Below are positions 1,370 to 60,114 of a stretch of 64,000 bases of DNA, one piece after another. Location: contig JAXQJY010000030.1 in NCBI GenBank assembly GCA_037042185.1, forward strand, positions 372,001 through 436,000, read 5' to 3'. Position 1 is the stretch's first letter, and each line of letters opens with the position of its first letter. A program made the translations under genes and the position numbers. The notes below the pieces were generated by a model. That model was given only the letters and a program-made list of their open reading frames with translations, ran no database searches and had not been told where the DNA came from. This DNA comes from Sordariomycetes sp. S80-01Y (Eukaryota > Ascomycota > Sordariomycetes).

Positions 1370-3738
1370 TCAAGCATCGCTGACCCTCCAGTTGTCGAAC
1401 CACTTCAAGTAGCTGTACTGCTTGTTGTTTCCAGTCATTCCCCAGCAGATGGGGATGAACAGAATGTATAGGCCGACGATAACGGTGTATAGTAGACCGT
1501 ACACAACGCCCTGGATGGTAGCGTTGCGGTTTCTCAAGAACCAATCGGCCAGGAAGCCAAAGGTGAGGATAGCAAAGTAGAGAGCAGGGTAGTAGTGGTG
1601 CACATAAGTCACACGCGCCATGATGACGAATGGCAGGTAGTGAAGGAACCAGCCAGCGGCAGGGTAAAGACCAGCGTAGTGGATGTGGTCAACCTCGCTG
1701 TCCTTGAGCTCCCTGTAGCCTCGCTGCCAGCGGATCAGGTACCAGGCAACGACCAAGCCGATGACACCCAGACCGGCAGTCGAGCCCCAGTAAACGAAGG
1801 GGTTGCCGAGCAGGAAGTACTTGACGATGTTGTCGTCCCAGCCGCACATACGCAGGCCGACGTGCAGAATTGGCCACTGCCACCACTGAGAGGCGAGGTC
1901 ATCCTGCTTATCGGGGTCAGGAACCAGAGCATTGTTTGAAGTCATCATGGCGACGTTGAGGTGGACGAAATCGTGGAAGAAGGGAGACTTGTAGACGCCC
2001 GGGTCACTGGGAGGTACTTTACACTGTTAGTTTTGACTTCAACGGTCGGAAAAGAGGCAACTTACGCTTGTCGTTCCAGTGAGCCTCGACGTTCCAGTGC
2101 GTGTAGGTGTCGCGAGGGTTGTTCTCCTTGGTGCAGGTAACCTCAATCTGCTTGAAACCCCACTGAGGCAGGTTCTGGTTACCCGCGCGCAAGTAGCATC
2201 CCATGACGGGGTGCTTGAGACGGAACGCAGTTGTTAGGGTGCGGACCTTGCTGCGGTCCCACGAAGCCGCATCCCGGATGACCTCAACCTTCCAGTGGTC
2301 CTTGCTGTCACCAACGGTCAGGTTGCCGTAGGTGGAGACTTCGTTGTCCTTCTTCCTCATGGGCGCTGCAATAGCGTGCGAGTGCAGGTTGCGACCAGTC
2401 TGAGCGTGAATGAGGCGGATCACGGAACCGTCACTGATGTAGCGCATCTCGTCAGACTCCGCGTCGTAGTCGGGCTCATCACGGTTGGGATAGAAGAACC
2501 AGTCGTTGTTGGAGTCTTTGTGGTGGTAGCAGGTAACCTGCTGCTGCTGCGAGCCCTCGGGGTAGGTTTGGACGTGGGAGTGGAGGAGACCACCACCGTA
2601 GCCCATGTTCTTGATGGTTGCGCGCGAGCCGTAGGCGATCTCGAGGGGGCTGTTCTTGCCGACGTTGGTACCCTTGAGGTTGGCTTGGAAGAGTGAGGAC
2701 ATCTGGGCGTCACCGGGACCGCTGCGGTCAAGGATGGCGAAGTGCAGCGCGAAAGAGAGCAGGTAGATCAGGAAGGGGACAATGATGAGACCGACGATAC
2801 GAGTGGCCAAGTGCGCGGACAGGGTAGCCTAGCAACGTTAGCATGAGTTGGACCTCAGGGTTCAGCAGTACTCACGATAGGCATCCTGGTGTCGCCAAAC
2901 TTGTTCCAGAGGTCCTCAATAGTGTAGAGGCCAACCAGCGCAGTGACGAACAGACCAACAAGCTTGACGCTGCAGACGCAGCCGATGCTGAGACCAGTCA
3001 GGAACAGCCACAAGAACCACTCGGGCTCAAAGGCGTTGTGGCGCTGATTGTGGAACTTGGCCCAGCAGAATACGGTCAGGACAGTTCCAAACAACAGCAT
3101 CGAGTCTAGAAGGATGAACCGAGAGATGGTCGTGTAGGAATTCTCGCAGAGCACCATCAGGGTCACAAGCCAGACAGCAGGACGGCGCAGCTTGAGCTCC
3201 TTGGCGGTGTAGTAGGCGAGCGGGATACACAGAATGCCGAAGAGCGCGTTGAAGGCGCGCATAAAAGCGTAGTTGACCTCCTCGGGGTACTTCTCGCCGG
3301 ACTTGAATTCGAAGGAACCGTTGTAGCCGGCCAAGACTCCGGAGAGTCCGACCAGCATCTTGCCGAGGGGAGGGTGAACATCGAAGTAGTACTCGTGCTT
3401 AATGTAGTAGCTGCCGAACTTGCCAAAGTGGGCTTCGTCCCAGGTCACAATATTGCTGAGGCCGATCTTCCATAATCGGGTCGCAAAGGCGGCGATGGTG
3501 AAGAGAATGGGGGCGAAAATGGGCTCCCATTCTTGGAATGTCTGGATGAATCCATCTTCCTAATTGAGCGTCAGCCACCAATTCCATACGTCTCGATCGT
3601 TCCGCTCACCTTTTTCTGCAACTTCTTGTTGTCCTCAGGCTGGGCGATTCGCGGGGCGGTCTGGGAGCTCGGGACACGTTGACGGAGACCATCGCCTCGG
3701 TCAGCGCCGGAAGCGACAGCGGCCTTTTCGGAGGCCAT
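1370..3738 (-). CDS. pmt2: Protein O-mannosyltransferase, PMT2 subfamily
   Basis: Four exons (3738-3610, 3559-2876, 2828-2066, 2016-1370) join to 740 aa. PMT2 enzymes move mannose from dolichyl-phosphate-mannose to Ser/Thr of proteins in the ER and usually pair with a PMT1 partner. The hallmark is [15 protein letters not shown] at about residues 82-96, with the acidic pair Asp84-Glu85 in the first luminal loop, followed by [10 protein letters not shown]. Those two stretches are typical of PMT2 rather than PMT1 or PMT4. Several N-terminal membrane segments follow, then three MIR repeats at about residues 330-520 (for example GGGLLHSH and GRNLHSH), then C-terminal membrane segments ending in [11 protein letters not shown]. 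The length fits the family. Introns are 49-50 nt and canonical. The start was chosen as the first ATG leading into the conserved frame; upstream in-frame codons look like leader. Confidence 0.94.
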
Positions 3739-4792
3739 ATTGAAATTGCGTATCACGGGATACTCGTCGATCGATATGGCAAAGGTGTCGTGGCGGAAAA
3801 AAGATAACCGCTGTGCGGCTGACGAAAGTTGTAGGAGAAAAAAGGGGACCTGAGCTGATGCAGGTGGAGGGGCCAAGGGGCCGATCGTAAAGGACTGGAC
3901 GAGCTTCAACACTCAAAGGGCCCAGCAATGACCTCTGTCGGGGGGACAGGATCAATTAAAGGCAAAGGCTGATGCAGAAGAGAAAGGATGCTTGAAGATG
4001 CGAGATGGAGGAGGCGTGGCAGTCCAAGAAACGGATACGAAGCCCCTGCATTCAGGGTCAAGAGTTGAAGCCACTTGTTAGCCATTAACAGCTCGACCAC
4101 CGCGCCGCGCTAGCAAACACGTTCCAGCCCTGCGCGTTGGAAATGAGGCTGACCAGCAGCCACAGATCCACAGACCCCTCAGCCACATCCGATCTGGGCC
4201 GATCACAGGGGGTGACAAAATCAAGGACGAGCGGGTTCGCGTCAAGCGCCGTAAGTACAAGGCCGTGGTTTTTATCTTGGAAGCAAAGAAAAAAAGATTG
4301 GATGCCTCGAGGACCTTTCTATTTTCCAGAGGAAGAAAAGTTCACCTTTGAGAACAGTAAAGCGACTCCATGTTGTCAGACTAAGACCGAGAGTCTCTTG
4401 ACTGGGCCTTCTTCCCAACTAAACTTTGTGTCATCCAGGTCATCACATGCTCCAGAGATGCTCCCGACAGGGATGCCACTTTGGCCGCTTCTGCCCGCCA
4501 ACGACGTGTCCCCGTCCGCCCTCCTTCGTTATGTCATCTCACGAGCCAGCTATTCCTCCGAAGAACGCACCTCTCATTGTTGGGCAAGGACGATACGCAG
4601 CCCACCATTACGACCTGACACTGTAGAATTCGGAGCCAACCTCGGAACAAACCTTGAACTACCGATAACAGCGACCCAGCACCCAGCACCCAGCACCCAC
4701 CCAGCCTTCCTCCACGTCGTCCCGCCGCGGCCGGCACCTCAACAGTGCCAGGGTCTCCACCCCTATTCAGCTAGGGAAACGCCGTCCTACAG
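3739..4792. promoter_or_regulatory. Divergent promoter between pmt2 and the CHY-RING gene
   Basis: About 1 kb separates two divergent starts and must hold both promoters and leaders. The part next to the CHY-RING start is C-rich and holds a short tandem repeat. A long open frame from 4137 runs into the CHY-RING start but resembles nothing known. No clear TATA box was seen. Confidence 0.45.
4674..4701 (+). repeat. Heptamer tandem repeat (ACCCAGC)
   Basis: Three exact copies of ACCCAGC (4674-4694) are followed by a fourth with one mismatch. The repeat sits about 100 bp before the CHY-RING start, in the presumed 5' leader. Confidence 0.85.
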
Positions 4793-24456: not shown

Positions 24457-25875
24457 ATGTCGGTAGAGCCTGGCATGGAGCCGCCTCCGGGCAAGGTGTC
24501 CAACTTCGACGACCCTGACCGCGAGATGTACTACATCTGCATTGTCTCCAATGCTATCGCCATTCCGGTGTGCACAGCCTTCATGGCCCTGCGAATCTAC
24601 GCTCGCTACAGGCTGCGCATGAAGCCGCAAGCAGATGATGGTATGTACAGAGTGCGAGGGACAGGTGCTGGACAATGCTAATCACGGCTTGCAGTGGCTT
24701 GTGTCATTGGATACGTATGTGTTGATTCTTGGTTCGGGGTATCTCTTGCTCACCAGCTGCTCTAGATTGGTTTCATGGGCTACTGCGCTATCTGTCTTCT
24801 CAGTGAGTGAATCAACACCGCAAACGCCTCGCATGGGCTGACTGGGTACAGTGTTGAGATACGGAGGCGGTCTGCATCAATGGGATGTTCCAGCAGAGCT
24901 AGTCCCAAGCTACAGTAAGGTATGTGACATCCATCACTCTCTTCCAGACCATATCAGTCGCTGATGCGAGATTTAGACGGTGTACGCCACCATGATCAAC
25001 TATGGCCCCACAGTCTTTGCGACCAAGGCAGCCATCCTGCTTTTCCTCACGAGGATGTTCTCCCCCTACAGAACATACGTGATGTGGATCTATGGATTCA
25101 TGGGCGTGATGGCCATTTACTACGTGGTCATGCTTGTTCTCAAGATCATCATTTGCCGACCTATTTCCATGTTCTGGGGGGCGACAGACGACGGAGAGTG
25201 CCTGGACCAGCGCCTGCTGATACTTGTCGACAACGTTATCAGCCTTGTCAGCGATCTTGTCGTCCTCCTTCTCCCATGTCCCTTGACGAAGAAGCTTCAG
25301 GTTGGTCTCAAGGCGAAGCTCAAGATCGGTGTCGTGTTTGGGGTTGGAGGCATTGCTTGCATCTTCAGTCTGATTCGACTCGTCTTCATCATCAACAATG
25401 GCGAGAGCCCCGACCAGACGTACGCATTCGTCCAGATTAACCTTACCGGGTAAGAGCTACTTGCATTGAGACATTTCGTCAGGGCTAACCAGAGACCAGC
25501 ATTGCCGAGGTTGGCATCGGGCTCGTGTGCGCCTGCTTCCCACTGATGCCGGCTCTCTGGAAGTCCATCCTCCACAAGGACAAGCCAAGCTACGGATACT
25601 CGTCGAATTCGAAATCGCAGTTCGAGATGATGAACACGTCGCAGAAGGGGACGAGGGCTACAACGATCAGGAAGGGCACGGTCAACTACAAGGACGAGGC
25701 CGAGGACAGCGACGAGAACAACCTGCTCCCGGACGGCAGACCACACGTCACGACAAGCATTCGCGGAGGCAACGGTGCCTCGGCCAGCGCCGGCACCAAC
25801 AGCGGGAGCAAGCCAAGCTTTGACGACTCTCATATCGTTCGCACGGTCGAGGTACGGCAGTACCACGAGGGTTGA
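24457..25875 (+). CDS. Fungal rhodopsin-domain integral membrane protein (Pth11/SAT5-like)
   Basis: Six exons (24457-24640, 24695-24714, 24766-24802, 24852-24919, 24977-25449, 25500-25875) give 385 aa. The family (Pfam rhodopsin_fungal) has seven membrane helices and is much expanded in plant-associated fungi; its best-known relative is the surface sensor Pth11. The first helix is about residues 24-46 (IVSNAIAIPVCTAFMALRIYARY). Later helices include ATMINYGPTVFATKAAILLF and YVMWIYGFMGVMAIYYVVML. RLVFIINNGESPDQTYAFV and IAEVGIGLVCACFPLMPALW are typical of the last two helices. The tail after residue 290 is hydrophilic and probably cytoplasmic. Two exons are tiny (20 and 37 nt), but every junction keeps frame. 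This copy lacks the N-terminal CFEM domain found in some members. Confidence 0.85.
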
Positions 25876-30967: not shown

Positions 30968-33015
30968 ATGGCCGTTGGCAATGAGGTGATCAACTTCGTC
31001 AAAGATCCTAAAGACACGGCACTGTACATACAAAAGTCTAACAATCTCGAGAAGGCCTGCTCATGGGACTCGGAGCCGCCTTGCCACTTCACGACGGTCT
31101 TGGAGAAGACGATCGAGGCACCATACTCCGTATTCTTGGAGAAGTCGGTCAGTGAATGGACCTCGGCTGACCCGGTGATACTTTACAGCCCCTGCAATGC
31201 AGACACGAAAAATGGCTGCGAAGGAATTGACATGAAAAGATGCGACGACAAATCGGTGCTATTCGACTCGTGGAGGACGTTATGGAATTGCCTAAGCCTC
31301 GCCAGCACGACACTGGCTTATCGTAGGTGGCCGGAACTTTTCTCCAATAATCACCCGGTGGTGGACAACGTGAAGGATGCTTTGAGCCCACTGGGCATGG
31401 ATATCAGTGCGTTGGACGACATGGACGCCATGCGCATCTTCAACTTGACTTTTGAATGCGCGAAAGCAAGCTGCGACGGTTGGTCTATGGACGGAGGCTG
31501 CGCGGTAGACTATCCTCAGGGTACAAATTTCACACTCGTCGACGATGGTCGCGACGTTGGGCCAAATACCTCCTGGGGTCCTGTCATGGTTGAAGCCTTG
31601 GGCCGGACGTGTGACGATCTGCCTACACTCAATGTGGACATTGCAGGGCAAGGGGTAAGTGCACACTTATTCGATATCGTTGCTTTGCGAGCTCTGATTC
31701 TTCAATTGAACAAAATGCTGAACATCACAAGGTGCTCATACCGTACACGATACAATCTGTGTCCGTTGTTGGGATTGTCTTCATCCTCACCGTTGTTTTC
31801 GCGGACTCGATTATCAACCTCTGGGCAATGCCGTTCCAACGTATGAGAAGAAGCCTAAAAGGCCCCTTCACTCACCGGTTTCCTCGCGTGCAAAGATTCT
31901 TCAGTCGAATTCAGGACAACAGGGTGACACATTCCGCGATGACGCTACTCGTGGACTTCCAAGAAGCACAGTGTTTCTTCTTGATGGGCGTCCAGGTTGC
32001 CGTTCTGATTGCCACGTCTCAGAAAGCCGACTTCCACGGAACATTCACCATTTTTAGCCTCAGAAACAACCGCAGAGCGAACCGCGGGCTGGCGAACCTG
32101 GGTCTAATGGCAGTCTGTCTGATCCAAATGACCCTTCGTCGGTTTGAACTCGACTCTGCCTACACCTTGTTTCTCTCCCTTTGCGCTCTCCTGGTAGCGT
32201 CAGTGGCGAGAGAAATCGGATTCGATCGAAATAATATGGATGCTACCATGAACTCCATCAACGAGATTATGCCCGTCGAGGAATGTGGAAAGTTGGGTTC
32301 ATTGAGGGTTCAATGTCTCGGCCAGACGCGTTTCGCTGCCTTGGACGACGGATTCATGGTCATCGGGCAACAAGCTGTCTACTATGCTGCCTTCTTCATG
32401 CTCTCCTGCGCCAAGCTGAGCCGAGAGCTCAGTCAGGAGAAATATAGCCACTTTCTTCGCCAGTGGACTCCCACATGGCTTCGCCGTGGCTGGGTGCGTA
32501 CTACATTGAAAAACACCGTGACCGCCATCCTCGGTCTTTCCGAGTTCTTTATCGGCTTGAGTCTCTGTCAAAATGCTACTGGACTTTTCTATAACATCAA
32601 GGGGTTGGACACGGACGCCACGTCAGACTCTGGAATGCTTGATAGCAGTATTCCACCAACCTGGAACATAGGACAGGTGCTTGCAGTCTTGGTATGGGCG
32701 CCTGTACTGTTCAAGTTTATCTATCTCCTTATCCGTAAGTCACTGAGTATTGGCTTGCAACCGCAGCTCTTACTGACAAGACTTGTTCCAGGAGGCATCG
32801 AGGATGGTTTCCGAATGCGTCTTTCTAACTCATATACCGTCAGAAGAGTGCTCGCAGATAACGATGCGCTATTTCTGGGGAGGGACAGTCTCGAGTTGGA
32901 CGACGGGGAGGAACAGGAAGCGGACGACGGCCAGGCGACTGGTGATGCTCATTTTAGCTCAACTGTTGAGCTGGTGGCTCAATCCAAGCACAGCCGCCGC
33001 TTGCCAGGAGTCTGA
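30968..33015 (+). CDS. Seven-helix membrane protein with a cysteine-rich ectodomain, tandem copy A
   Basis: I do not recognise this family. Three exons (30968-31654, 31732-32734, 32792-33015) give 637 aa. The first 229 residues are soluble, with N-glycosylation sites (NLT, NFT, NTS) and many Cys (SEPPC, GCEGIDMKRC, LWNCLS, ECAKASCDGW, CAVDY). Seven hydrophobic segments follow at about 238-258, 308-325, 347-364, 371-388, 436-455, 490-509 and 542-562. Basic loops follow segments 1, 3 and 5, which predicts an outside N-terminus and inside C-terminus. The segment 4-5 loop has a Cys pair (EECGKLGSLRVQC). The tail is acidic (DSLELDDGEEQEADDGQ). Copy B shares intron positions and core motifs (DFQEAQCFFL, GQVLAVLVWAPVL). 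No signal peptide is present from this start. The frame is open upstream to about 30884, so a 5' exon is probably missing. A receptor or channel role is speculation. Confidence 0.72.
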
Positions 33016-33023
33016 GTATCGAG

Positions 33024-33341
33024 ATGGAATTTTCTCTCTCTGTGCTGTATCAGCGGCTCTTTGACGGGCCTGTGACTCCGGTGCATATAGGTCATCCGAA
33101 GGCCAACATAGAAGCGGTCAGTAGATTGGACTATTTCCAACTAGGAAAAGATGTGTATTGGTTGGTCCTGGCTGCTTTTACAGAAGTCAAACGTGCACTT
33201 GGAGCGGTCAAAGTCGCTCTTGGCATGCTACGTAGGTTCTCGAGTCCGCTTCAGATGCAGAGTGGCATATGCATCCACACGGCACAGACGCACAGGCGCT
33301 CCATGTTGAGAACAGTCAACAATCGAGATCAAGATGTTTAG
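33024..33341 (+). pseudogene. Possible fragment of a third copy of the seven-helix gene
   Basis: This 105-codon frame contains LDYFQLGKDVYW (about residues 35-46), close to IDYVQLGRDMYW in the ectodomain of copy B (8 of 11 identical over the core, with most DNA differences at third positions). The rest of the frame shows no clear match to either copy, and no membrane part is present. It may be a relic exon, or a chance match. Confidence 0.3.
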
Positions 33342-33488
33342 AGTATCGTGGCGCAGCATGGAACCCCACGCGGTGGAAATAGTTAAATTCATTTACTCCA
33401 CGACTACTTTCCCCATTTACATTGAGAGGACGACCTAAAGGTTGTCTCAAGATGCGCTTCAAGTCAAGTCAGCAGGCCACTCGTCAAG

Positions 33489-35665
33489 ATGGGACTGTCA
33501 ACTCACTCTTCCAACTTCAACAACTGGGTGAACCTGGTTGACAGTGTTCATGATATCCCTTTCGAAGCTCCTGGGTCAGAATACCCACGGGAATCCTACG
33601 ACTTCATTTCGTGGGAGCTCGAACCACCTTGCGATATTTTGGCAGCAATCAAGCACTCGCTCGTCGGACCGTTCGAGCTCTTTGGCAACTCGTCAGATCA
33701 CGATAGCATAGAATTTCGGACGGCACCACTGCTGCTGTTCGACTTGGGCTGCTCGGCTGGCAGCGACGACTGCAACTTCAACGAGACTTGCAGCGACCCG
33801 GCGACGCTTTTCGCGTCATGGCAGACACTGTGGAACTGTCTCACGCTCTCGGGCATGTCGCTGGCCTCCCGCGGATTTCCCTGGTATTTCGAACCCGATT
33901 CTAGCGCGAACGCGAGCGACGACTATGCGTATGACGACGTTCGCAATGCGTTGCAGCCTCTGGGGCTGGACTTGGACTCCATCTCCTCATTCGACGCTGC
34001 TCGGGTTTTCAATCTCACCTTCAAGTGTGCTGAGGCGAGTTGTGAGGGATGGTCGGGGGAAGGGGCCTGTCAACTTGAGTATCCAAGGGACATCAGTTCC
34101 CGTCTAGCAAATGAATCCGGCGAGATAGACTACGTCCAGCTTGGACGCGACATGTACTGGACTTTACGTCCACTCTGCGATGACCTGCAGACTCTGGATA
34201 TGGATATCGCTGGGCCGGGAGTAAGTCGATGTCGTTTCCCACTTTATCGCTTTCCCACTCTGTCGTATCTGGTACGCCCTTCCTGCGTCCAATGCTAACT
34301 ACGCTTAGGTAAAAATCTCGTACTACGTTCAATCAATCCTAGTCCTCGCGCTGTGGGGTATCCTCCGCCTTGTAGTGGTCGAGGGCGCTATCAACTTCGT
34401 CATGGCGCCGGCAATATGGTTCAAGCCGGGGATGAAACGAACCAGAGGGACGTTTACCGACCTCTTTCCTCGTTCACAAGGGCTGTTGAGGCGTGTGGAG
34501 AAGAGCAATGCCGTTCAATCAACTGTCACCATGTTAATCGACTTCCAGGAGGCCCAATGTTTCTTTCTCATCGCCGTGCAGATTGCCGTCATATTCGCCA
34601 CCCACCAGGGCTTCAGATTCCACGCTGGGTCGACAATGTTTAGCCCAGACCAGAACAGAAGCTCGGCCTATGAACTGGCAACGCTGGGCATGTATCTCGT
34701 CTGCCTCGTCCAGATAACCCTTCGCCGGCTGAGAGTGGATTCGACCTACACCTTGCTGTTGTCCACGCTGGTCACCGGGCTTGCCACAGCGACTTTAGCG
34801 AATGGTCTCAGCAGGGCCCTGATGAAGGACACTCTCGCATCTCTTCAGGAGCATAATGCAGTTGAAGAGTGCGGGGCTTATGGCTCGCTGAGGTTCCAAT
34901 GTGTAGGCGAGACTGTTGACGGTGCGGCTGACACCTATTCGTCGACTGGTGAACAATTACAGACCTCACTCTCGTCATATATCAGCTTGGCTCTAGTCTG
35001 GGGCATCAAGTTGTCGAGGGAAGTTGCTAGACGAGGTATAGGCCGCAGGATTAGATCGTCACACGCCTGGTTCAGGTCGGCCGGCTGTCATCGTACTTTG
35101 ATCTACCTTCGAGCGCTGGTTGACGTTGGCATGTTGGCTCTGGAAATCTGGCTGACTCTCTCGATCGCGATAACTGCGTCTATCATGTTTGGGTCCATGA
35201 CTGATTCGGTGGCGAGCGGGTCGCAGGACGGGATCAGTGACAATCCTGGGACTAGGGATTCCTGGAACACCGGTCAAGTCCTCGCGGTATTGGTCTGGGC
35301 TCCCGTGCTGTTGAGATATGCTTATGCTCTCATACGTAAGTAGATCCCCGTGGTTACGTGCCAATAATCGTCAGCGTCGATGCCAAATTCTAACCATGTG
35401 CTTAGGCGGAATCGAGGAAGGTCTCCGAATACGGGTTTCCAGCATGTTCGAGGTCCGCAGAAGAACGCATCAACTGGGTCAGGAACAGTTGGAGCCAAGC
35501 TCTCCTAGGGTTGTGAGTCTAGGCGAGCCGGCACAAAGTTCCGGGCACCTTGGAAAGCAGACCGAGATTGGACATGTGGAGGCTAGGTTTCTCCATGTTG
35601 AACCGGAGGCCATAGAAGCCAATCCGGCCTTACCTCGAAGACGTCGTCGGGCCGGAACTCATTGA
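33489..35665 (+). CDS. Seven-helix membrane protein with a cysteine-rich ectodomain, tandem copy B
   Basis: Paralogue of the upstream gene, in the same orientation. Three exons (33489-34220, 34309-35335, 35406-35665) give 672 aa. The ectodomain has matching landmarks: WELEPPC, TLWNCLTLSG, NLTFKCAEASCEGW, CQLEYP and CDDLQTLDMDIAGPG. It also has five N-glycosylation sites (NSS, NET, NAS, NLT, NES). Intron 1 lies at the same place, just after the AGPG/AGQG motif and before helix 1; intron 2 splits the Arg codon after helix 7 in both copies. The segment 4-5 Cys pair is kept (EECGAYGSLRFQC). The cytoplasmic tail differs: it is longer and ends basic (LPRRRRRAGTH) where copy A is acidic. The start is uncertain; about 20 codons are open upstream and no signal peptide is seen. 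Function unknown. Confidence 0.75.
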
Positions 35666-39311: not shown

Positions 39312-42300
39312 CTACATGTCTATCGAGTCGTTAAACCGCAGTACACCGTGACTTTTCAGCACGCCGTCCACTCCCTGCGGTGGGCGGTCGAACGCATCTG
39401 TCTGCGCCGGTGCGTCCGTTTCGGCGGTCTTGTCCATTACCAGAGCGAGTCCATGGGATTTGATGGCATCGACGAGGGCGGGGACCATGTCCTGAAGGAG
39501 TATCAGTAACTGTTGCTAAGAAACACGACTGCAGAGGTGTGACTTACCAGGAGTCGGGAGAAGCATATCAAGCCCATGAAGTTGTTGCTCTGCGCTATCC
39601 GTACGACTTCCTTTATCGACGCGCTCCTCCTACCACTGCTCCGCACGACGCCGGTCGAGGGTGCCGTCTCCTCCCTGCCGAGGTCGTTGCACAGGAAGAC
39701 GGGGAAGTTGGGTTGTTTCCAGTTCAGCGCTGTGCACAGCTGAGGATTGTAGCTGCTAAACACGATCGACCGGACAGCGTCTGGAGACTGAGCTCGTTGC
39801 GCCCGAGCATGGTCAAAGACCACGTTCAGGATGGCGTCGACGAAGATGTTAACGTCCAGCGCAGGGCCGAGGGCAAGAGACTTCTCCTCTTCTGGTGTTG
39901 GGTAGAGGATCTGTAGGTTGACGTGGATGCCTTTCGGCAGGATAGAAAGAGCTTCGACGAGCGTGATGCCAGCAGTGGCCAGGATCTGGTAGACCTGCGC
40001 TATGCTCTCTGGTGATCTCGTTGAGAGACTCGGTAGTTGCGCGCGGCTGCCGCTCTGCGCTGTTGTAGCGGCAAATTGCTCCAGCGACAGGCGACAGACA
40101 GGTATCTCGATCCCCCCGCAGGGTACTGTCCACGTAGGCCAGATGACTGGGATACCATCGCTGGTGTATTGAACGAACATTCGTACATAGTCACCCGACA
40201 GACTTGAACCTGTGACCACTGCACTGGTGGGCTGGTTGAACTGGCTCGTTGCCTTCCAGTACGTCTCAAAATCCGTAATCTCGAGCGGTTGTCCTTGGAA
40301 AGGCTTGATCACTTGCGTGTTGAAGCTGATCTGGCCGATCGCCCGTAGCCGAGGGTCGAAGAGCGGTAGACAACATCTGGAATTACCTTGCAGCGCTTTG
40401 AAAGTGCTTGGCAATACCACCGTCTTTGCGATTACCTTGGCGCCGTAGGCAGGGAACACGTCAAAGTCGAGGGAAAAAGATTCCAGATTATCGATCTGGA
40501 AGGAAACCATGCGGGTATCTTCTTGGAAAGGGAGGATGATGTTTTTGGGGATAAGGTCAGAAACCTTGGATGAGATCGTGAGGCGCGCGGCCGGGTACTT
40601 GCCATCTTGGAAGAAAACGAGCGGTTGCTCACCTGTTTCCTCGAAGCTGAGCTGCACCACCGTCTTAGTATCGAGGAAGTTATGTCCATAACGTCGGAGG
40701 GGAATTATTGGAGGGGGCAGCTCGAGGACAGGGATGGCGTCCGGGTCCAGCGACATAGGCATAGGCGCGCTGCTGCTGTCCATTGCACCCAGCATTGGTT
40801 GCGTGATGAGAGGACTGGTGCGCTGGCGTGTATTGAAGGGTGTGAGAAGCTTCATGCAGGCAAGATGACCTTCCCAAGCCGCGTAGTACATGGCTGGGAG
40901 ATCTTTCTCGTCGAGAACGTTGGGGTTGACGCCAGCGTTGATGAGTGCTTTGAGGCAGTCGACGTTGCCCTCGCCGGCGGCGTGTACGAGCGGCGTCCAG
41001 CCGTAGAGCTTATCGACCTGGTCCAGATCTGCGCCATATTGCTTCAAGAGAAGCAGCAACTCCGATGTCTGCCCTGACCTCGCGACCAAATGTTGAGGGT
41101 ATAGGCCTTCAGCGTCTGGAAGTATGTTTGCTCCATGCTTCAGCAGAAGCTCAACAATTGCAACCGAACCATGCTCGCACGCCAGATTCAGAGGGACGTG
41201 ATCTGAGTCTGAGACTGGATCGATGCGTGCCGATTTCGCCAAGAGACGCTCGACGCATCTAAGGTGGCCATGTATTATAGCGTGGATCAGAGGAGTGAAA
41301 TTGTCGTGGTCGATGAGATTAATAGTCCCCTGGCTCGCTACCGTTCTGTCAGTTTCACTCGTCCCATAGGTTTGGCGCAAGGTCTCTCACCTTCCAGCAG
41401 AGCTTCGAGGAAAGCTAACCGCCCGTGCAAGCTGGCATAGTGAAGCGGCACCCGGCCATATACATCCGTGCGGTCAACAGCGACGCCCGCTGCCAGACCC
41501 CATTCCAGAACATGGTATTTGCCGTAGATAGCTGCTTGATGCAAGCAGTTCCTCTCGTTAATGTCGTCATATGAGTGCAAATCCACCAGCTTGGTCTCAA
41601 GGAGGACCTGCAGTGTCTCAACTGGCGCGTCATAAATAGCCGCAAGAAACGTCCTAGTAATGCGCTCCATCAATGAGCTGTCCTCATCTCCAGACTCACT
41701 TGATGACTTCATCTTGGCCAACAAGTCTCGCAACGTCGCGATGTTGCCCGTAATGACCGTATCGAGCAGAAGCGTGTCGGCATCGCCCTCATCGGTCCCG
41801 ATGAAATGTTGACTGGTGACGACATGCCCAGATGATCTGAAGTCGACCTGAATGCCATCCGACCAAGCTCCCAGCTCCTGCAGGCTCGTCGTTGCCTGGT
41901 CTGAAAGCTCGCTGATGACCGTTGCGTTGAAGAACGGCTGGACCTCAACCGCCCTGGACAAGTAGAGCTCCTTCGTCTTCGATTTCGATGTCTTGTCCCA
42001 CTTCTTCAATATCTTCGAGAAGGCAGTGCCGTTAATCTCGACAAACTGCTGCAATTTGTTCAAGTCCGTCGCAAATTGCTGAAATCCCTCCTCGAGTGTC
42101 GTGAACTTTGCCGATCGTCTCGATATGCCATGTCTTGACTGGAGCACCTTCTTCTTATCCAGCAAAGTCTTGAGACGAATCTTGAGCTACATTCAAATTA
42201 CTCATCAGTCTCTGTATAGCAGATGTCTTGCAGGAACGGCAACTCACCTCAGCTTCTTTTTGTAGGTAGAAAGCATTGACCTTGTCCAGTTCCCGCTCTA

Positions 42301-49934: not shown

Positions 49935-52322
49935 ATGGCTGTCTATGGGCAACGCGATGCCGCTGGGTATCGTATGGCACCCCGTGTCAACCTGGGAAGG
50001 GCTGGATTGGTTGCGAGGGCTGAGGATGATAAGCCAAACACGGTCAGCTCCATGGCTGTGCCCATTGCTGTCTGCATCGCGTAAGTTTTAGGTTAAACCT
50101 CTCGTTGTCAACGCGTGGCTGACAAGATGATAGTGTTCCGATTGCGATTGCGGTTGGTGTTCTCCTCTGGCTGCATAGACGAAACGTCAAGCGACAGAGA
50201 GCAGAGGATGCGAACGACCCCCATGCTCACCTCGATTTCGGCACGGGCGACGCTCCCATCGGCGGCGGCAAGAAGAAGTTGGGACGCAAAAGTATCCTAA
50301 TGATGGGTGGTGAGAAGGGACAACACAAGACAAATCAGCTCTCCATGGACATGAACCTGGAGTCGCCGTACCTTCTTCCTCCTCAAGCCCAGAATTCGCA
50401 CGACTCGGTTCACAGCTTGACACGCAACTACCCTCAAGAATACGACCCTTACCGCATGGTTTCGAGCGAATGTGGAAATTCAATTCGCTCCTACAACAAG
50501 GAAACCGGCGGTTCGATATATGGCAGCAAGCGCAACTCTGTTGTCACTGCCAGGTCGCTCAAGATGCCCCCGCCTCGCCAGGGCTCGTTCCCCAGGGTTC
50601 CCTACTCTCCTTCTGACAATGCCTCAACACCCGTTGAAAAGGAGACTCTCGCCAAGGATCCTTTTGCAACTCCCCCGCCGGCGCCCGAGCCCACCCACCA
50701 AGGTCCAGCTCAACCTCAACTGCAAGACCCTATCTTGCCCGTCCAACCTGTCGTGCCAGAGATCGATACTGTTCCCTACCCTGACGAGAAGGAGGCTATG
50801 CCTCGTGTTCCTAGCATCCAAGAACCACCTCCTGCGATGGCTAAGAGTCCGGAGGATAGGAGATACAGTCCGCCTCGGGATGGGCCGCATCAATTCGAGC
50901 TTCCTGGGATGGCCCAGTCTGACAACATCGGCATGGCGTCGGGTGGTGACATCTCGCCTCCCCCACGCCACCCAAACAATCAGCCTGACGGATTAGGTCT
51001 CAATCTCGACCTTCCTCAGCCAATGTCTCCTCTCAAGGATGACATGTTCGGAAATCAACAGCACATCCAGCCTCAGTCCGCCCAGATCGTGAGTGCCGAC
51101 AGCCGCCTGTCAAAAGAAAGCGATTACGGCTATCAAGACGCCTACCAGCCCCAGATCCAGACCAGTGAGTATTACGATCAATATGAAGACGACGGCCGGG
51201 GTAGGTCAAGACAGTCCCGCATGGACCTCGACATGCAACAGCAGCAGCAATCGCAAGGTCTCCGAGTTCCCCAGCAGGATAACAAGCGCTTGTCAGTCGG
51301 ATTCCGCCCCTTGCCCCCAGATGAGGCTCTGGAGTCTGAAGATCCCGAGTATCGCGCCAACCGCATTCGATCTTTCTACAAGGAGTATTTCGATGACTCG
51401 AAGGATGCCGCCCCGCCTATGCCCAACGTCCCCGCTGAGTACTACGGTGGCGCCGAGTACTATGAGGATTACGATCAGGGTTACGCAGAAGCAGCCTACT
51501 TCGACCCAGAGACGAACGCCTTCGTCATGCCGTACGCTCAGCCTGTGCAGCGCCGTGCAATGACACCTCCACCAGGTGGGCGCAGAGGAGGACCCGGGCC
51601 TCGTGGTCCTCCTGGACCCAACCGCCGCGGCCCTCGTGGGCCTCACGGACCTCACGGCTCCCTCGGTGGAATGAGTCTCCCCGGTGGCCCAGGCCGCCCG
51701 AGAGCTGGCTCCGCTTGGGGATCCCGCGCCCCGTCATCACTAGGTCCCCGTCCTGACTCTTCCGCTTCGGCCAGGGCTGGCCGCGCGACTCCAAGAAAGA
51801 ACTTGCCACCTCCCAGTGCTCTGAACACTCTGCCGACACCATCCAAGCTCAAGGACGATTCATTCGCTCTCATCAACGCCGCGGACTTCGCACCCCCAGA
51901 GTCCTTCCAAAGTAGGGCCCGCGGTCGCTCGCAAAGTCCCTTGGGTGAGAGGCGAGCCTACTCACCAGCGGTTCCTGCTGCTTCGCCACTCGTCACGACG
52001 TACGACGAGCTTGGTGTCATGCCCAGCCCGTAAGTTGCATTCCCACCTTGGCTCACATCGGATACTAACATAGCTCAGACACGACCTTCGCAAGTCATCA
52101 ACCTTTACGGGCCTGGACTTCCTCCCTCCCAAGAAGTTCAAGGACAGCGACACCATGAGCGACGCAGGCAGCATCCGCTCCAACCGCAGTGCCATCTCCC
52201 GCCAAGCCGAAAGTGCCATCCGCTCTGGCGCAGGCCGTGTCAGCAGGCTCCCCGGCGACCAGGTCTTCACGACCCACGCGTTGGAAGGCCAGCTGAAGCC
52301 ACAATGGGGCATGCGTCAGTAG
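49935..52322 (+). CDS. Single-span fungal membrane protein with a long disordered cytoplasmic tail, function unknown
   Basis: Three exons (49935-50080, 50134-52029, 52079-52322) give 761 aa. A short N-terminal part (about 1-38) precedes one membrane segment (about 40-62: AVPIAVCIAVPIAIAVGVLL), which is followed by a basic stop (WLHRRNVKRQR). The remaining 690 residues are low complexity: Pro/Gln/Ser-rich, then a Gln run (about 433-440), a Tyr-rich acidic part (AEYYGGAEYYEDYDQGYAEAAYF) and a Gly/Pro/Arg part (about 540-580, GGRRGGPGPRGPPGPNRRGP). The C-terminus looks more conserved: STFTGLDFLPPKKFKDSDT, then AISRQAESAIRSGAG. Intron 1 interrupts the membrane segment. No family name is recognised. 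A cell-surface or septum-associated adaptor role would fit, but this is inference. Confidence 0.75.
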
Positions 52323-58446: not shown

Positions 58447-60114
58447 TCACGGCTTGGTCCCGCCGCGATCGTGTGCTCGCAAGCTCTGCCTCCTCGAAAG
58501 TTCCCGCTGCCTTTGCTTTTCTGCCCATTCACGGCTCGCTGCTCTAGAGCGCTCAGCAGCCTGCTCGCGGGCCAGCCTAGTAGCTGCCTCCCGTTCTCGC
58601 TTTTCCTTTTCGCGGTCAAGTGAATAGCTGTTGTCACGGGCGTAAATCTCCCGACCTCGCAGGCGCTGTTGTGAGATATCCTCGACAGACACGGAGCTTC
58701 GCTTCTCGCTGAGACTTGTCGACGCAGAGGTGGCGCGACTGCCATCATCGGATGGGCCCGCTACAGAGTTGCGTCCACGTCCCTGAGGTGACTGAGCCGC
58801 CGCAACCGATGCAAGTCGACTCAGCGAGTTCGAAGTAGAGAGGCGCTTTATGCGGGCGCTGTCTCGCGTGGGAGAGTCCTCTGAGTCAGTCTTGCCCTGC
58901 CGAGCGCGACTCGCGATGGTCTCGCGGGGTAAAGCATTGACTGTGTTCGATTTGAAAGGGCGAGCCTTGAACTCCCGCCTCCTGCGTTCCTCTTCTTCCT
59001 GGGCTTTTAGCTTCGCCTCTCGCTCTTCGCGCTTGCGGCGAGAGATGGCCTCTCCCGGAAGCTCGAAATTGGGCTTGGTCAAAGGTCTGCTAGACTTCGT
59101 CCTTGTTGGGGCAGCAGCAGCTTTCTGGGCCTCGGCCTGTTGAGCCTGGCGCGCCTCGCGCTGTTGCTTTAGCCTCCTCGACACTGCCTCTCCTGGAAGT
59201 TCAAAATGCGGCACTGTTACTGGTTTGGTCGACTTGATGGCAACTTTGGGCTCTGGAGTATGCAAATGGACGGCCTTCGGTCGAGAAATAAACCGAGCCG
59301 CCTTCTGCTCTGGCACCGCATCAGACCTCTGTGGTTGATTCTCTCGCAAATCCATCGAGTTTGATCGTCGAAGCGCTGGCCGCATCTTCTCACTAGGCTT
59401 GACCCGGAGAGTGGCTGACTGACCTGGCGCGATGGTGACTCGCTTACCAGCCTTGCCGGTGCTGGCAGGAGTGCCAGAAATACACTTGACCGGCCTGCGC
59501 TCTGAAGCAGCCATTCGAGGGGAGTTGGTGTAGTTGTTGACTGCTTCAATCTCATCCTCGAGTCTGTCGATTTCTTCCAGGGAGTCTTCGATGCGAGGCC
59601 CCGAGAAAGAGCCTGCTGGGGACGCAAAGCTACCGACCTCGCTCACATGGGTGAGAGAGGGCGAAACCGCCTGGTCCATGGCCTCGATCGACTCCTTGAT
59701 CTTTAGTGTATTTCGTGTGTTGGGATGGCTGGATAGCACTGAGGTGATTTGATCTTCCAGCTCACGACGTCCTTCAGACGGGGGCTTCGTATCATCGTCG
59801 GTGTCTAGGCGAGTCGCGAGGAAGGTGAAATTGTCGGCAGCCTGGTCTTGACCTCCGCAATTTTCCTTGCGACGCACCAAGTTGCAACCATATGTGGCGA
59901 CTTTCGACGAGTCGATATTGCCGTCATGGACCAAGGGAGTTTGGCCGTTTGTAGGAGGTGGGTAGGTCATGACCCAGTCAAACTGATAACTCAGCTGCTT
60001 GTTGACTTGTTCGTCGATGGGCCGGTCAACCGTGGCGTGTGTCAGGGGATGGTTCTCGTCGTGTAGGACTAGCAAACGTCAGCTGGAGTTAAGCATACCC
60101 CATGATAGGACGAA
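58447..60114 (-). CDS. TPX2-like basic coiled-coil protein, 5' end uncertain
   Basis: The main exon (60068-58447) codes about 540 residues. A 16-nt exon (60114-60099) fits in front: it reads FVLSW and joins VLHDENHPL in frame through a 28-nt intron, which is unusually short, so this junction is tentative. TPX2 proteins bind microtubules and activate Aurora kinase. Two copies of a motif, PHFELPGEAVSRR and PNFELPGEAISRR, are each followed by Glu/Arg/Lys-rich helices (REEREAKLKAQEEEERRRREF), and KARPFKSN resembles the KARP motif of the TPX2 C-terminal domain. The rest is disordered, with a charged helix (RKREREAA-like) near the C-terminus. Further 5' exons probably lie within 60115-60540, where a minus-strand frame is open, but I could not join it. 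The neighbours are DAD2 and shugoshin, also spindle genes. Confidence 0.6.

Follow-up and report, generated by a model that had tools for sequence, protein, structure and literature searches.

A tandem gene pair and an unlinked paralog as a candidate family of seven-helix surface proteins with a cysteine-rich ectodomain in a sordariomycete fungus

Results

A tandem pair of homologous genes with common intron positions

We analyzed a stretch of 64,000 nucleotides from Sordariomycetes sp. S80-01Y (the window; contig JAXQJY010000030.1, C13:372001-436000), part of a 30.87 Mb genome in 16 contigs whose intron structure and gene content are of the filamentous fungus type. Our subject is a pair of intact genes, A and B, that lie head to tail in tandem on the plus strand and whose products are predicted to combine a cysteine-rich (Cys-rich) N-terminal domain, hereafter the ectodomain, with seven transmembrane segments (TM1 to TM7) and a cytoplasmic tail. 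An earlier reading of the DNA letters (the sequence-only reading) had described them as adjacent same-strand genes sharing both intron positions and phases. This was confirmed, as intron 1 (phase 0) and intron 2 (phase 1) interrupt aligned codons in the two genes, and GT...AG borders were found in all four introns. The features of the pair, including one position shared with a third paralog (C, see below), are as follows.

30968-33015 (+): gene A, 637 residues, ATG at 30968
30968-31654 (+): gene A exon 1, Cys-rich N-terminal domain (229 residues), predicted outside; open frame to a phase-0 GT, homologous to exon 1 of gene B
31655-31731 (+): gene A intron 1, phase 0, GTAAGT...AAG; place common to B and C
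31732-32734 (+): gene A exon 2, seven predicted transmembrane segments (334 residues), from hydropathy and charge
31957-31975 (+): FQEAQC motif at the start of TM2 of gene A, from a pattern search
32735-32791 (+): gene A intron 2, phase 1, GTAAGT...CAG
32792-33015 (+): gene A exon 3, predicted cytoplasmic tail, distal part acidic by charge count
33489-35665 (+): gene B, 672 residues, stop codon ending at 35665
33489-34220 (+): gene B exon 1, Cys-rich N-terminal domain (244 residues), predicted outside, from the open frame and the alignment with A
34221-34308 (+): gene B intron 1, phase 0, GTAAGT...CTAAC...TAG
34309-35335 (+): gene B exon 2, seven predicted transmembrane segments (342 residues), from hydropathy and charge
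34543-34561 (+): FQEAQC motif at the start of TM2 of gene B, from a pattern search
35336-35405 (+): gene B intron 2, phase 1, GTAAGT...CTAAC...TAG
35406-35665 (+): gene B exon 3, predicted cytoplasmic tail, Arg run close to the end by charge count

The two proteins were 37% identical over 587 residues (BLASTP, expect value (E) 5e-119), with 39% identity in the ectodomain and 38% in the helical part, and the motifs DFQEAQCFFL and GQVLAVLVWAPVL, listed in the sequence-only reading as common to the pair, occur exactly in both. At fourfold-degenerate codons for the same residue in A and B, the third base was identical in 26 of 114 cases (0.228), against an expectation of 0.253 at saturation. Silent sites between the two genes are thus saturated, and the duplication is therefore old. 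Because 37% of the residues have been kept overall despite these saturated silent sites, both proteins appear to be under purifying selection.

The cytoplasmic tails had also been read as strongly divergent, acidic in A and Arg-rich in B, as if the outputs of the two proteins had split after duplication. Divergence was found in the distal tail, which is 24% identical (12/50), acidic in A and provided with an Arg run near its end in B. It did not extend to the first 19 residues, which are 58% identical (11/19), and the tail of B has 14 K/R vs 11 D/E in total, compared to 9 K/R vs 15 D/E in A. The case for split outputs is weak, given that silent sites are saturated and that poor conservation is limited to the distal tail; divergent distal tails are no sign in themselves of split outputs, since unconstrained tails behave likewise.

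A third, unlinked paralog

Searching the genome with the sequences of B, A and C identified a third paralog on another contig (C; contig C7, L007:2554-3189 + 3238-4518, 638 residues); these searches scored only the best candidates, and more distant members may exist. Identity between C and A was 22.8% (548 aligned positions, E 3e-20), and that between C and B 22.9% (585 aligned positions, E 9e-23). Its intron 1 interrupts the same codon in the same phase as in A and B, while intron 2 is absent and the frame runs on. A DNA pattern for F-Q-x-A-Q-C had three matches in the genome, corresponding to A, B and C, compared to none for the reversed control pattern. All three paralogs carry FQEAQC, an intron within DI-x-G-x-G-V (between the last G and the V), seven invariant ectodomain Cys and a Cys pair in the loop between segments 4 and 5. 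A further lead, according to which other fungal hypothetical proteins have a similar G-x-G-V before TM1 and GQ-x-x-A in TM7, was not supported: the pattern F-G-Q-I-[VIM]-A had one match in the genome, and the frames there look glycosidase-like by eye.

Seven predicted segments with the N-terminus outside

For each protein, we determined the best seven non-overlapping 19-residue windows by summed Kyte-Doolittle hydropathy. These hydropathy windows overlap in the A/B/C alignment, and none of them falls in the N-terminal domain of any of the three proteins. Windows 1 to 7 have 10, 14, 15, 19, 18, 2 and 19 alignment columns common to A, B and C, respectively, the sixth window of C being poorly aligned with only 2 columns in common with A and B. 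The summed hydropathy reached 12.38 in A, 12.01 in B and 13.38 in C, compared to maxima of 12.36, 12.46 and 12.09, respectively, in 300 shuffles each; over 1000 further shuffles each, the observed sum was reached in 2 (A), 0 (B) and 0 (C). The seven hydrophobic segments that had been placed at matching positions in A and B were thus recovered there and also in C, weakly so for the sixth, and A, B and C probably cross the membrane seven times.

The orientation proposed from charge, with the N-terminus outside and the C-terminus inside (N-out/C-in), was likewise borne out. Under this model, K and R made up 16.9% of the predicted inner residues (91/540) and 6.1% of the outer ones (59/966) in the three proteins (Fisher P 8e-11, for related and hence not independent sequences); excluding the ectodomain and the tail, the inner loops had 56/272 and the outer loops 22/267. 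The A/B alignment contains 13 Cys columns, nine of them in the ectodomain. Ten columns are invariant across the three proteins: the ectodomain contains seven, the loop between segments 4 and 5 two and the FQEAQC stretch of TM2 one, so that 9/10 lie in predicted outer regions and 1/10 in TM2. The loop pair (Cys 414 and Cys 424 in A), already pointed out in the sequence-only reading, is among them. Three further ectodomain Cys (residue 178 of A, 194 of B and 172 of C) lie near one another, that of C not aligned; we take them as a putative eighth common ectodomain Cys, which would make the number even. One more, at residues 39 of A and 48 of B, is common to these two proteins.

A shared ectodomain pattern of Cys and N-glycosylation sites had been claimed as well. 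Its Cys part stood, with the nine aligned columns, and its sequon part did not, as the sequons at residues 159 of A and 175 of B are the only ones that align. Nevertheless, 14 of the 15 counted sequons fell in predicted outer segments (binomial P 0.016), and the other in the tail of C; the sequon at N510 of A, which falls inside a segment, was left out of the count. Ectodomain sequons were more frequent than in shuffled sequences in B (5, P 0.015) and C (5, P 0.017) and not above chance in A (3 vs an expectation of 1.9, P 0.29). Overall, an N-out/C-in topology would fit the distributions of charge, sequons and Cys alike.

No signal peptide was found in A or B, where the best of the 15-residue stretches with a start in residues 1-45 scored 0.61 and 0.79, respectively; the same scan gave a weak N-terminal stretch of 1.39 in C. 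Residues 11-29 of C (L007 2554-2640) form a weak hydrophobic stretch (1.26) that has no counterpart in the top-scoring windows of A and B and could be a weak signal sequence. By hydropathy, no candidate for an upstream signal-peptide exon was found in the ~1 kb above A or in the gap between A and B, and two candidate signal-peptide starts were found above C. An N-out topology without a signal peptide would mean that TM1 has to carry 235 (A) and 247 (B) residues across the membrane as a reverse signal anchor. Signal anchors that export their N-terminus (N-exo) and bear long N-tails do exist. An N-exo signal anchor has been described with an N-tail of 33 residues (PMC10155758).

No match to a named family

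That no named family fits A and B, as stated beforehand, agrees with our searches, none of which gave a significant match in Pfam, NCBIfam, PHROGs or the PDB sequences. In Pfam, only chance matches were obtained, both for whole A and B (E up to 1) and for pieces of the three proteins (E up to 10). Among the matches of the pieces, the lowest E was 0.054, and Cytochrom_B561 was matched by C at 5.7, in a scan where the HMMER filters drop most weak matches. There was no match in NCBIfam for six pieces of A, B and C and none in PHROGs for four pieces of A and B. Among the PDB sequences, none was matched by A alone or by the ectodomain profile of A, B and C, and the TM profile had a single match, a potassium channel, that was no better than chance (E 0.67 over 61 positions). 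In Pfam and NCBIfam, no enzyme, transporter or channel family was matched significantly by A, B or C.

Relatives were sought in prokaryotes, viruses and plasmids, a scope that says nothing on the spread of the family in fungi. None was confirmed among 45 and 84 pattern stretches from prokaryotic genome contigs, among 58 from viral contigs or, with exon 2 of B as the query, in plasmids. Judging by titles and the openings of abstracts, we found no paper on the family, and none with its exact motif strings, in a literature search that left most subscription journals outside.

Surroundings in the window

A Pfam scan also covered 20 more of the long frames in the window, taken from 28 listed frames of at least 260 residues (a number that includes the frames of A and B). 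The matches include Rrn6, aldehyde dehydrogenase, sugar transporter, GST, fatty acid hydroxylase, ribosomal L3, SPX-ankyrin-GDE1 C2, helicase, MIR and CHY/RING zinc fingers, and the Pfam content of these 20 frames did not suggest a dedicated cluster. An SPX domain, ankyrin repeats and a GDE1-like C2 domain extend over two adjoining frames at 39506-42186 (-), whose product is presumably of the Gde1/Pho81 type involved in phosphate metabolism. The long frames at 50123-52030 (+, 636 residues) and 58450-60078 (-, 543 residues) had no Pfam match at E 0.001. A Pth11-like gene (PF20684) runs from ~24457 to beyond 25800 (+), with its core at 24827-25441 (E 1.7e-36) and apparently several introns. It lies ~5 kb upstream of gene A.

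Discussion

We propose that A and B, as old tandem copies, and C belong to a family of fungal surface proteins with seven helices and an N-out/C-in topology that are most likely orphan environmental sensors, a tentative reading to which we assign a probability of about 0.45. The proposal builds on three homologous genes with intron 1 in common, on hydrophobic segments that recur at seven matching places, on alternating charge, on invariant Cys in the ectodomain and in the loop between segments 4 and 5, and on proteins that stayed conserved while silent sites became saturated. In the mechanism that we envisage, TM1 of A and B would act as a reverse signal anchor, taking the acidic N-terminal domain (~217-247 residues) across the membrane of the endoplasmic reticulum, where the ectodomain Cys (eight in common, one of them roughly aligned in C) would form disulfides. 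The proteins would then most likely reach the cell surface, where the folded ectodomain may meet an outside ligand or a wall component. The bundle of helices, which bears conserved polar residues where TM2 begins (FQEAQC) and in TM7 (W-x-x-GQ), could pass the resulting change to the basic inner loops and the tail, so that A, B and C would act like G-protein-coupled or other seven-helix receptors.

Several observations weigh against this proposal. It is unusual for a large Cys-rich N-tail to lack a signal peptide, as in A and B, and neither Pfam nor profile comparison gave a match to a receptor or G-protein-coupling family for A, B or C. The hydropathy evidence for seven segments is moderate, with weak segments on the Kyte-Doolittle scale in A (TM3, 1.23) and B (TM5, 1.06), and the averaged hydropathy peaks above 0.9 were not above chance (9 listed, compared to a mean of 6.6 and a maximum of 12 in shuffled sequences). 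AlphaFold models, made from two-sequence alignments, were poor, with a predicted local distance difference test score (pLDDT) of 40.4 for exon 2 (TM part) and 34.5 for exon 1 (ectodomain).

An alternative explanation is that the family consists of seven-helix N-out transporters, channels or channel-like subunits with a regulatory Cys-rich ectodomain, and not of receptors. The polar residues that are invariant close to the membrane (FQEAQC in TM2, GQ in TM7) could line a path, the potassium channel was the sole match of the TM profile, though at chance level, and many fungal multi-span proteins are unassigned (PMC12842992); however, the Pfam matches listed include no significant family of this kind, and we consider this alternative improbable, if less so than the others. 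It is less probable in our estimation that the proteins serve as membrane scaffolds, or in adhesion, wall contact or the secretory pathway, with no signal or transport of their own. Such a role would suit a Cys-rich, sequon-bearing ectodomain in proteins where no catalytic motif was recognised, but A and B have conserved their helical region to about the same degree as their ectodomain, which argues that the bundle is more than a mere anchor. Behind both of these we place, as unlikely, a bolder version of the sensor proposal, in which A, B and C would form a new fungal class of G-protein-coupled (or equivalent) receptors whose disulfide-rich, ligand-binding ectodomain is exported by TM1 without a signal peptide, the tandem pair being kept for different ligands or as a dimer. 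Liu, Salamov and Grigoriev sorted fungal G-protein-coupled receptors into 17 classes (PMC12842992), and this one would stand outside them. Besides the Pth11-like receptors, their scheme comprises Ste2, Ste3, Git3, PQ-loop, Dicty_CAR, RGS, 7tm_2, HlyIII, Bac_rhodopsin, Lung_7-TM_R, ABA_GPCR, DUF3112, Solute_trans_a, 7tm_1, 7tm_3 and Frizzled (PMC12842992). These classes resemble A, B and C in their seven helices and N-out/C-in topology, and none of their Pfam domains was listed for whole A and B (E up to 1) or for pieces of the three proteins (E up to 10). The same source proposes DUF6534 candidates as new receptors, all from Agaricomycotina (PMC12842992), whereas no DUF6534 match was listed for A, B or C.

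The two remaining alternatives are far less probable. An inverted topology with a cytosolic N-terminal domain would account for the lack of a signal peptide in A and B, but the distributions of charge, Cys and sequons described above favor N-out, and we regard it as very unlikely. Least likely of all is that A, B and C are a very diverged branch of the Pth11-like/fungal rhodopsin receptors. Unlike these, the family has a domain of ~217-247 residues, a Cys spacing different from that of CFEM and, in A and B, no signal peptide. The gross plan is the same, as the Pth11 subgroup with CFEM also has a Cys-rich N-terminal domain, seven helices and an N-out topology (PMC1088943), and the genome holds a large Pth11-like repertoire, with 121 exon-level PF20684 matches, one of them in the window. 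Together with two Git3 matches elsewhere in the genome, this means that both families are present and detectable there. However, the matches listed included neither PF20684 for A, B and C nor CFEM (PF05730) for their exon 1, and hhalign gave a probability of 0.1% (E 0.47) between a five-piece Pth11-like profile and the A/B/C TM profile, compared to 99.7% for two disjoint Pth11 pairs, an easy control of closer relatives that leaves room for very remote kinship. By these comparisons, neither Pth11-like membership nor a place in the CFEM-bearing subgroup was supported.

The proposed sensor family fits into a large reservoir of fungal proteins. In a survey of 1,357 fungi, 141,666 seven-helix proteins in 1,969 clusters remained unassigned (PMC12842992). 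Similar to A, B and C, these have seven predicted helices and no Pfam domain, and one of the clusters probably contains the family. Fungal receptors are for the most part orphans (PMC13308352). Given the number of unassigned seven-helix proteins, such a family is expected and not surprising in itself; it is noteworthy that a conserved Cys-rich ectodomain occurs here together with the absence of a signal peptide in A and B and the lack of a Pfam family. With three members, a diagnostic motif, a conserved Cys-rich outer domain and a tandem pair that is old and has been kept, A, B and C offer a clean handle on orphan proteins, and if they were a true receptor class, they would extend the known sensing repertoire of filamentous fungi.

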